Shown one piece after another: positions 43,431 through 45,659 of a DNA stretch of 64,000 nucleotides. The translations under genes were made by a program, and so were the position numbers. The stretch is from Mesorhizobium sp. CA14. Lineage in GTDB: Bacteria > Pseudomonadota > Alphaproteobacteria > Rhizobiales > Rhizobiaceae. The stretch lies in the NCBI RefSeq assembly GCF_020165195.1, contig NZ_JAIUHR010000001.1:372001-436000 (forward strand), given 5' to 3'. The number at the start of each line of letters is the position of its first letter. Position 1 is the first letter of the stretch. The notes under the pieces are model-generated. The model was not told the DNA's origin. It did not search any database and worked only from the letters and a program-made list of their open reading frames with translations.

Positions 43431-44351
43431 ATGTCCATTACGGCCGCCGCCGCGCCGACGCGCGGACCGATGACGCTCAAGGATTGGGCGCAGCTTCTCT
43501 TGCTCGGCGCGATCTGGGGCGGCTCGTTCTTCTTTGCCCGTATTGCCGTTTCCGAAATCCACCCGCTGGCGCTGGTGCTGTTTCGCGTCGCCATCGCCGC
43601 GATCGCACTCCAGCTCTATCTGGCGGTCTGCGGCCCCTCGTTCCGGCTCGCCTTCCCGCATGCCGGCCTGTTCTTCTTGCTGGCGCTCACCAACAACGTC
43701 GTGCCCTTCTCGCTGATCTTCGCCGGCCAGACGCAGCTCGGCGCCGGCGTCGCCTCGGTGCTCAACGCCACGACGCCGTTCTGGACGCTTGTCCTGGCCA
43801 ACGCGCTCACGACCGACGAAAAGCTGTCCTGGAACAAGCTGGCCGGCATCGCGCTAGGTGTTGCGGGAACAGCGGTAATGATCGGCCCGGGCCTTATTGC
43901 CGGCCTCGGCGGCCCTGTCTGGGCCAAGTTCGCCCTGATCGGCGCCTCAGTGTCCTACGCGATCGCCCTGATGATCGCGCGCCGCTTCAAGGGCGTGCCG
44001 TCGCCGGTCATCGCCACCGGGCAACTGACGGCATCGAGCATCATCATGATCCCCATCGTGCTCATTGCCCAGGGGCCGACGGGATTGTTCTCGGCCTCGC
44101 CACCGGTCTGGGCCGCGGTGCTGGGGCTGGCCCTGCTGTCCACCGCCTTTGCCTATATCCTCTATTTCAACCTTGTCGCCTCGGCCGGCGCCACCAATGC
44201 CTCGCTGGTCACCTTGATCGTGCCGGTCAGCGCGGTGCTGCTCGGCTTCCTCTTCCTCGGCGAGCGGCTGGCGCTGTTCGAGATCGGCGGCATGACCCTG
44301 ATCGGACTCGGCCTGATCACCATCGACGGGCGATTGTTCGGCAAATGGTAG
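43431..44351 (+). CDS. EamA/DMT-family transporter
   Basis: This inner-membrane carrier has 306 residues and about ten predicted helices in two EamA repeats (LLLLGAIWGGSFFFARIAVS-like start; second repeat from FALIGASVSYAIALMIARRF). Members export metabolites or take up nucleotide-like compounds. ISFGERL-like motif FLFLGERLALFEIGGM near the C-terminus is typical. It is divergent from the decarboxylase gene, so polyamine or amino acid export is possible but only a guess. Confidence 0.88.
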   Translation: MSITAAAAPTRGPMTLKDWAQLLLLGAIWGGSFFFARIAVSEIHPLALVLFRVAIAAIALQLYLAVCGPSFRLAFPHAGLFFLLALTNNVVPFSLIFAGQTQLGAGVASVLNATTPFWTLVLANALTTDEKLSWNKLAGIALGVAGTAVMIGPGLIAGLGGPVWAKFALIGASVSYAIALMIARRFKGVPSPVIATGQLTASSIIMIPIVLIAQGPTGLFSASPPVWAAVLGLALLSTAFAYILYFNLVASAGATNASLVTLIVPVSAVLLGFLFLGERLALFEIGGMTLIGLGLITIDGRLFGKW

Positions 44352-44485
44352 CGGTGTCATGTCACAGCGCCGCCACAATTTATTCACAACCGCGAAGCCG
44401 GCTTTTGCCGAAGAGTTTCAACGGCTAACGGCAAATTCCAGGTCGCAAATTCCACAATCATGTCGCATTGCAGCACGTTTTCCGC

Positions 44486-44513
44486 TTGCCTGTGACCCAA
44501 ATGACTCTAGATT
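44486..44513 (+). promoter_or_regulatory. Promoter of the 28-residue membrane protein gene
   Basis: TTGCCT (44486-44491) and TAGATT (44508-44513) are 16 bp apart, each matching four of six sigma70 consensus bases. Transcription would start near 44520, about 25 nt before the start codon. The remaining 130 bp back to the EamA gene hold nothing I recognise. Confidence 0.55.
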
Positions 44514-44544
44514 CCGGCCATAGCTCTGAAGAGGAGGCTATGGC

Positions 44545-44631
44545 ATGGGACTGACGAGGCCGATCAACGCTTTGATGATTTGTGCCGCATTTGCATTCAT
44601 CGGTGCCCTTATCATAGGTGTTCTTCCCTGA
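44545..44631 (+). CDS. 28-residue single-span membrane microprotein
   Basis: The frame encodes 28 residues: a short basic N-terminus (MGLTRPINAL) followed by one hydrophobic helix (MICAAFAFIGALIIGVLP). A strong GAGGAGG ribosome site lies 7 nt before the ATG. A promoter at 44486-44513 and an intrinsic terminator at 44680-44706 make it a free-standing transcription unit of about 190 nt. The expected topology is N-in with the helix in the inner membrane. I know no function. Similar tiny hydrophobic proteins often modulate membrane complexes or respond to stress. It could also be a small RNA whose frame is incidental, but the ribosome site argues against that. Confidence 0.72.
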   Translation: MGLTRPINALMICAAFAFIGALIIGVLP

Positions 44632-44679
44632 CCCGCCAAAGCCGGGAAGACTAAATACCGAGAATAGTCCAACAGTTCG

Positions 44680-44706
44680 AAAAGGCCGGGTTCTACCCGG
44701 CCTTTT
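44680..44706. terminator. Bidirectional intrinsic terminator
   Basis: AAAAGGCCGGG pairs perfectly with CCCGGCCTTTT around the loop TTCTA. A T-run exists in both directions. It ends the microprotein transcript on the plus strand and metF on the minus strand (metF stop at 44742). Confidence 0.9.
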
Positions 44707-44741: not shown

Positions 44742-45659
44742 TCAAGCCGCGGCGGATCCGGCCGCCTCCGCTTCGTGCGAGCGGATGCCGATCATGTGGC
44801 AGACGGCAAAGACGAGGTCGGCGCGATTCATCGTGTAGAAATGGAAGTCGCCAACGCCGCGCTCGACAAGGTCGAGCACCTGCTCGGCCGCCACCGCCGA
44901 GGCCACCAGCGCATGCGTCTGCGGGTCGTTCTCCAGCCCTTCGAAGCGCTCGGCCAGCCATGCCGGCACCAGCGCCCCGCAGCGCGAAGAGAAATTGGCG
45001 ACCTGGGTGAAATTATGCACCGGCAGAATGCCCGGCACGATCGGGATGTAGATGCCGGCGCGGCGCGCCCGCTCGACATAGCGCTCGTAAAGATCGTTGT
45101 CGAAGAAGAATTGGGTGATCGCCCGCGTCGCGCCATTGTCGGCCTTGCGCTTCAGCATGTCGATGTCGGTGGCGAAATCCGGGCTTTCCGGATGCTTTTC
45201 CGGATAGGCCGAGACCGAGATGTCGAAATCGCCGGCGCTCTTCAGCGCGCCCACCAGTTCGGCGCCATTGGCATAGCCATCGGGATGCGGGTGGTAACTT
45301 GCGCCGACACCGGCCGCCGGATCGCCGCGCAACGCGACGAAACGTTTGACACCCATATCCGCGAATTCGCGGATGACCGTGTCGACCTGATCGCGCGCGG
45401 CATCGACGCAGGTCATATGCGCCGCCGGTGTCAGCGTCGTCTCGTTGAGGATGCGCTTGACCGTGCGCGCCGTGCGCTCACGGGTCGAGCCGCCGGCGCC
45501 ATAGGTCACCGAGACGAATTTCGGCTTCAGCGGCTCCAGCCTCGTGACCGTGTCCCATAGCCTTGCTTCCATCTCGTCGGTCTTTGGCGGGAAAAATTCG
45601 AACGAAACCTGGACCTTGTCGCCGATGTCAGGGCGGCGGGAAAAGCGGAACTGGTTCAT
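44742..45659 (-). CDS. metF: Methylenetetrahydrofolate reductase MetF
   Basis: MetF reduces 5,10-methylene-THF to 5-methyl-THF, the methyl donor for methionine. Its 305 residues start MNQFRFSRRPDIGDKVQVSF, and the family core is visible: SFEFFPPKTDEME, VSVTYGAGGSTRERT, AAHMTCVDA, RFVALRGDP and TQFFFDNDLYERYVERAR. The ATG shares one base with the stop of the upstream ArsR-methyltransferase gene (TGATG), so the pair is an operon. Upstream in-frame codons belong to that gene and were excluded. Confidence 0.96.
   Translation of the reverse strand: MNQFRFSRRPDIGDKVQVSFEFFPPKTDEMEARLWDTVTRLEPLKPKFVSVTYGAGGSTRERTARTVKRILNETTLTPAAHMTCVDAARDQVDTVIREFADMGVKRFVALRGDPAAGVGASYHPHPDGYANGAELVGALKSAGDFDISVSAYPEKHPESPDFATDIDMLKRKADNGATRAITQFFFDNDLYERYVERARRAGIYIPIVPGILPVHNFTQVANFSSRCGALVPAWLAERFEGLENDPQTHALVASAVAAEQVLDLVERGVGDFHFYTMNRADLVFAVCHMIGIRSHEAEAAGSAAA

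Follow-up and report, generated by a model that had tools for sequence, protein, structure and literature searches.

The microprotein gene described here lies between an EamA transporter gene and a convergent metF gene, as read directly from the sequence of the window, the whole 64-kb stretch of DNA that was analysed. The following features were assigned, with their basis given in brackets.

43431 to 44351, plus strand: EamA transporter gene, the upstream neighbour (PF00892)
44458 to 44478, unstranded: PhaR-type palindromic box, core CGCATTGCA at 44464 to 44472 (matrix score 13.8; core fits the published YGCRNYGCR; position conserved)
44486 to 44491, plus strand: predicted -35 box TTGCCT (sequence; CTTGCC or CTTGTC at the equivalent place in many relatives)
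44508 to 44513, plus strand: predicted -10 box TAGATT (sequence; TAGANT recurs among relatives)
44510 to 44514, unstranded: GANTC methylation-type site overlapping the -10 box (GANTC in 48 of 107 family loci)
44531 to 44537, plus strand: Shine-Dalgarno sequence GAGGAGG (sequence; GGAGG in 189 of 226 loci)
44545 to 44631, plus strand, stop included: 28-codon membrane-type microprotein gene (homologs, codon constraint, hydropathy)
44682 to 44704, unstranded: terminator stem-loop (sequence; one within 160 nt past the stop in 80 of 107 relatives)
44742 to 45659, minus strand: metF, the convergent neighbour (PF02219; MetF match in 102 of 107 family loci)

The predicted -35 and -10 boxes are 16 nt apart, 7 nt separate the GAGGAGG from the ATG at 44545, and the 28-codon frame encodes MGLTRPINALMICAAFAFIGALIIGVLP. 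Besides the 189 loci with GGAGG, a further 35 of the 226 carry a Shine-Dalgarno core of 4 nt. The terminator consists of a 10-bp stem (44682 to 44691 and 44695 to 44704) enclosing the loop 44692 to 44694 and is followed by TTCCATT; its position is common to the microprotein gene and metF, and it is T-rich on both strands. An earlier note had claimed a promoter, the GAGGAGG, a frame of 28 codons and a terminator for this place, and direct reading bore out all four. A generic promoter and terminator scan listed neither the promoter nor the terminator of the unit, the cutoff for promoters being 9 of 12 consensus matches and the microprotein promoter having 8. By generic rules both elements are thus unremarkable, and the case rests on conservation. 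Stem-plus-T terminators at most 160 nt after the stop were found in 80 of the 107 family loci versus 2 of 424 control windows. At 44540 to 44554 an out-of-frame mini-ORF of four codons (MAWD, then stop) overlaps the microprotein gene; it begins at a second ATG, 5 nt ahead of the start codon, and GGCTATG directly after the Shine-Dalgarno sequence recurs by eye in many relatives.

Using the 28 residues as query, 133 of the 151 genomes of the GTDB family were matched at E<=1. An order-wide alignment query of 60 sequences found a match in 126 of 151 family and 164 of 297 order genomes (E<=0.01). In a class-wide sample 8 of 289 genomes, the own genome included, gave a match; one of the other seven was strong (E 5e-7), and this class figure also bounds the noise. 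Matches were usually one per genome, and the homologs were 25 to 28 residues long. For the family, 111 loci were scored and 107 kept, after L002, L109, L110 and L111 had been dropped for lack of a homolog (L109 being a 200-base stretch). These 107 loci stand for 107 of the 151 family genomes, most second members of a genus having been left out. For the order, 40 loci were hand-picked from 123 matching genomes and 39 remained, since the peptide was not refound in L217. A third set, the named loci, comprised the best 80 of 320 confirmed ones. Among the 107 family peptides 72 had 28 residues, 29 had 25 and 6 had 27; N8 was conserved in 103, F16 in 106 and F18 in 102 of them.

The codon-level comparison pointed to purifying selection. 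In frame, pN/pS was 0.177 for 53 close and 0.364 for 48 distant loci, while the five other frames gave 1.38, 2.98, 1.08, 0.39 and 3.95 for the close and 1.11, 2.04, 0.97, 0.61 and 1.92 for the distant loci. The low pair of 0.39 and 0.61 belongs to one reverse frame and was read as the shadow of the true frame. Mean pairwise identity among the 80 named loci was 84% for the ORF, 37% for the 3' UTR and 53 to 62% for upstream stretches. The earlier note had proposed a search for homologs with a check of codon-level conservation, and had named as the outcome that would speak against a gene the retention of promoter and terminator with loss of the frame. The opposite was seen: the ORF was the most conserved part, and the frame persisted in four genomes whose upstream box is gone. 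Judged from sequence comparison, the 28-codon frame is a real, conserved microprotein gene.

Two observations were made at the edges of the homolog set. In family f32 of the order (genomes G181, G278, G391 and G415), several members of one genus matched about equally weakly (E 0.0046 to 0.0099), as a diverged homolog that the model can barely reach might do. Outside the order, a genome of about 1.5 Mb (G604, locus L244) encoded a clear homolog that resembles the 25-residue peptides, is extended at its N terminus and is preceded by AGGAGG; this homolog in a small genome of another order may reflect transfer, contamination or an odd lineage.

The product is predicted to be a single-span inner-membrane peptide. 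Hydropathy of the 60 aligned members showed one hydrophobic stretch of helix length, with a mean hydropathy from residue 7 to the end of 2.45 in the median and 1.95 at minimum. The stand-alone, probably translated single-helix microprotein of the earlier note is in line with this hydropathy and with the purifying selection. Net charge was +1 in 37 and 0 in 19 of the 60 members, so that an orientation with the N terminus inside is a weak inference. Conservation was not focused on one face of the helix (p 0.42), and hence no partner-binding face was seen. Searching three members, Pfam gave no match up to E 5, the phasin domain PF09361 included, and NCBIfam nothing above its cutoff; one of the three had matches to PetN and PsaM below it. 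A literature text search with the first residues of two peptides yielded no publication.

Concerning the genomic neighbourhood, a MetF match was present within the fetched stretch in 102 of the 107 family loci. Of the 39 order loci, 20 had MetF or MetH nearby and 9 had an amidase, which indicates that the old location was widely kept, yet relocation was common. Sampling nearby genes in these 39 loci, with some of the neighbours left unnamed, showed no recurrent same-strand partner close downstream. A role as upstream leader peptide was rejected, as the convergent metF follows and no same-strand gene lies just downstream to be attenuated. Rfam at gathering scores returned RNase P alone for the entire window. 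This RNase P RNA (RF00010, 27170 to 27566) is located about 17 kb from the microprotein gene, on the same relative strand as in S. meliloti, where the distance from rnpB to the RNA SmelC549 is about 14.5 kb according to the available text of PMC7143759; the two distances indicate that the wider neighbourhood was kept.

In the upstream regions of the 107 family loci the sequence GCANYGCAGCA was seen just before the -35 box. PhaR was guessed from it before the comparison with the published PhaR motif WNWDDNYGCRNYGCRNHHWNW and site table (available part of PMC12542648). In the window the box lies just outside the coordinates covered by the earlier note and is centred at about -52 from the predicted transcription start. 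A matrix was built from 17 published sites of promoters marked as efficiently bound in that part of the paper, leaving out three weaker exoH sites and the mirror entry acyP. Using a threshold of at least 8, a box was found upstream in 78 of 107 family, 72 of 80 named and 19 of 39 order loci. Control windows elsewhere in the loci gave 26 of 1644, 12 of 1438 and 16 of 693, shuffled upstream stretches 90 of 1070, 73 of 800 and 28 of 390, in the same order, and regions upstream of neighbouring genes 5 of 253. The strict core, 60 to 100 nt upstream, was present in 82/107, 75/80 and 20/39 loci versus 6/253 neighbouring gene starts, and the median distance from box centre to ATG was 76, 75 and 82 nt for the family, named and order sets. 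Order loci with a met neighbour had the box in 12 of 20 cases, those with none in 7 of 19. This threshold left 25 of the 101 PhaR-positive loci of the family, and 20 of the 39 loci of the order, without a box. The scores of 13.8 in the window and 16.0 in S. meliloti 4H41 are below those of all 17 training sites (minimum 16.8). Of the three phasin genes in the own genome, two are preceded by double boxes according to the same matrix (22.7 and 13.9; 26.5 and 20.3), and the third has no box (best 5.5). We infer that PhaR binds at the microprotein promoter.

Taking PF07879 as PhaR, 257 of 297 order genomes were positive. The gene was found in 163 of these 257 versus 1 of the 40 PhaR-negative genomes (Fisher 1.8e-14, uncorrected for kinship, with the sets compared by hand), and 94 of the 257 were without a detectable gene. 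By hand count it occurred in 28 of 48 families and in none of the five wholly PhaR-less ones (chance about 0.009). The association of gene and PhaR follows phylogeny in part. In the family sample 120 of 134 PhaR-positive and 6 of 17 PhaR-negative genomes had the gene. Four of these six (G016 and G119 of one genus, G078 and G096) are 94 to 99% complete, lack PhaR and any PhaC match, and kept the gene but no box. The two other PhaR-negative genomes, the drafts G031 and G110, keep both gene and box; G031 carries PhaC and belongs to a genus with a PhaR-positive member, and the completeness of G110 is 68%. Overall, the box was present in 76 of 101 PhaR-positive versus 2 of 6 PhaR-negative loci (p 0.045). 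For the near-complete PhaR-negative genomes, from three genera, it was 0 of 4 (p 0.005), the two drafts having been left out after the result was seen. The box tends to go with PhaR, and the protein appears able to outlive polyhydroxybutyrate (PHB).

These data were also considered with a regulator other than PhaR at the upstream box, the microprotein then being real and not tied to PHB. Such a regulator would fit the asymmetry of the conserved box, which extends as GCANYGCAGCA, its scores under those of the training sites, and the survival of the gene in the four genomes without PhaR and PhaC. However, it is in just these four that the box was lost, order genomes lacking PhaR almost never carry the gene, and the PhaR sites of SMb20609, SMc03815 and SMa1961 also read GCAGCA in the published site table (available part of PMC12542648). 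We regard another regulator as unlikely, with some weight left to it, and continue with PhaR.

A second motif was observed at the promoter. GANTC, 25 to 55 nt before the start, occurred in 48 of 107 family loci versus 187 of 4274 control stretches. Its overlap with the -10 box (TAGANTC) concentrated among the 72 loci with 28-residue peptides, which hold 46 of the 48. The N varies (C 22, T 20, A 7, G 2) with GA and TC constant, and by eye GANTC seems retained where the PhaR box was lost (L043, L052, L054). Its place over the -10 box hints at cell-cycle methylation control, for which GcrA/CcrM was considered.

S. meliloti 4H41 (L175) encodes in the equivalent setting a strongly hydrophobic homolog of 25 residues, MGLTHSLNVLMISAAFAFVAVMLFV. 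The corresponding place in the strain 1021 literature is occupied by an RNA. In the available text of PMC2573895, sm4 is placed in a 541-nt gap after SMc01844 in the orientation > > <, with predicted 5' ends at 2371490 and 2371606, a 3' end at 2371852 and a small-RNA microarray signal under salt. The same RNA appears in the available part of PMC2873474 as the trans-encoded sRNA SmelC549 (2371597 to 2371855); RACE had verified its 5' end, and stable structures had been predicted for its shorter derivatives. A screen of the sRNAs of that study for frames of 60 nt or longer had picked out six among the trans-sRNAs. SmelC549 is further listed among trans-sRNAs with nodule expression (PMC7143759, in part). 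Five S. meliloti records were matched and three opened, two of these with almost no annotation. In the Ak57 record exactly 541 nt separate the DMT transporter gene from metF, and the PLSDB gene table of this record, which can be incomplete, lists no feature between the two. The locus was equated with the strain 1021 RNA on matching gap length, gene order and orientation. Aligned by the terminator, the published SmelC549 5' end precedes the ATG by 24 nt and is 1 nt away from the predicted transcription start, the older predicted sm4 end 2371606 is 8 nt off, and a candidate PhaR-type core in the 541-nt region, CGCAGTGCA, belongs to a box centred at -52. These sequence correspondences identify sm4/SmelC549, filed as non-coding, as the mRNA for a conserved protein of 25 residues. 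The 3.7-Mb record named S. meliloti Ak57 pSymB (CP090106.1, L251) carries the metF region, which is chromosomal in strain 1021, and is probably a mislabelled chromosome. MmgR, a PhaR-controlled sRNA, was rejected as the identity of the RNA, since it maps to 3046712 to 3046789 in S. meliloti 1021 and SmelC549 to 2371597 to 2371855.

The locus might instead act chiefly through a trans-acting regulatory RNA, SmelC549 as filed, with the short frame as a second or minor function. The publication as trans-encoded sRNA with RACE-mapped 5' end and structured shorter derivatives (PMC2873474) and the microarray signal under salt (PMC2573895) agree with this, and in the available text of PMC3927594 four conserved stem-loops are described for the SmelC549 family, with a function inferred for them. 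Yet the same text confines the RNA family to Sinorhizobium and makes it the most divergent in nucleotide sequence of all those compared, whereas the peptide is found across the order. Adding the codon-level constraint and an ORF far more conserved than the 3' UTR, we consider a primary RNA function distinctly improbable and retain the mRNA reading.

At the protein level, the available part of PMC10117765 describes SEP6 of S. meliloti 2011, with fewer than 30 residues and a predicted helix, Western-positive, mainly in the P100 fraction and conserved in Hyphomicrobiales; 13 of the 48 novel frames of that study lie in annotated ncRNAs. Compared by description alone, the microprotein is possibly this membrane-associated SEP6.

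Two further identities of the peptide were weighed. A small PHB-granule protein, that is a mini-phasin and not a membrane regulator, would account for the PhaR-type box, for its place, common to phasin promoters, and for the strong hydrophobicity. The peptide is, however, far shorter than phasins, three members matched neither PF09361 nor another Pfam family, and four genomes that lack PhaC, and with it a PHB synthase of that kind, have retained the gene, which makes a granule protein a poor candidate. The toxin of a type I toxin-antitoxin pair, silenced by antisense RNA, deserves hardly any credence: size and hydrophobicity fit, and one promoter-like site on the minus strand (44639 to 44611, TTGGCG-17-TATGAT, 9/12) points back across the gene end, but long-term purifying selection, a stable place beside metF in 102 of 107 family loci and usually one match per genome stand against it.

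Weighing all data, we lean toward a single-span membrane microprotein with its own predicted promoter and terminator that is likely under the PHB-sensing PhaR and would bind a membrane partner. As long as little PHB is stored, PhaR would occupy the box at about -52 and keep the promoter repressed. Accumulating PHB would draw PhaR away, and the small mRNA would be made. The short helix would then insert into the inner membrane, probably with the N terminus inside, and adjust a membrane partner, by which the carbon-storage status would reach the membrane. Sequestration of PhaR by accumulated PHB, relieving repression, is described for other S. meliloti promoters in the available part of PMC12542648. 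At the microprotein promoter repression appears about twice as probable as activation. As the PhaR of Ralstonia eutropha is reportedly also called an activator, activation was kept as the alternative sign. Small single-span peptides often work by binding a membrane protein, and a partner of this kind is proposed here. The retention of the gene in four genomes that have neither PhaR nor PHB synthase makes the PHB granule itself an improbable partner. The earlier note had left the function unknown; this is now narrowed to likely control by PhaR and PHB. For the wider proposal, that an ancient order-wide membrane microprotein belongs to the core of the PhaR regulon and relays carbon-storage status from PHB granules to an inner-membrane target, and that the published ncRNA family is its mRNA, we see the chances as evenly balanced.

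Among known systems, CydX, KdpF and MgtS are small single-span regulatory or accessory membrane peptides. The microprotein is like them in size and in its single hydrophobic helix and differs in that no partner operon was seen and three members gave no Pfam match. With the PhaR (AniA) regulon of S. meliloti (phaP1, phaP2, phaZ, mmgR and others) it shares the type of box and its upstream place near -35; the phaP1 and phaP2 promoters also hold site copies upstream of -35 (available part of PMC12542648). The targets in part 1 of Table 3 exclude the microprotein locus, and metF, "small protein" and "ncRNA" are not mentioned in the portion of this paper available. PhaR would gain a likely output at the membrane. 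SEP6 resembles the S. meliloti peptide of 25 residues in having fewer than 30 residues, one predicted helix and conservation in Hyphomicrobiales (PMC10117765, in part). A gene of 25 to 28 codons was kept across much of an order and is absent from one well-annotated S. meliloti gene table, a type of source that can be incomplete. The RNA sm4/SmelC549/SMc06721 agrees with the microprotein gene in the 541-nt gap, the orientation and a 5' end 24 nt before the ORF. It was filed as a trans-encoded ncRNA of Sinorhizobium, whereas here this catalogued non-coding RNA becomes the predicted mRNA of an order-wide peptide.
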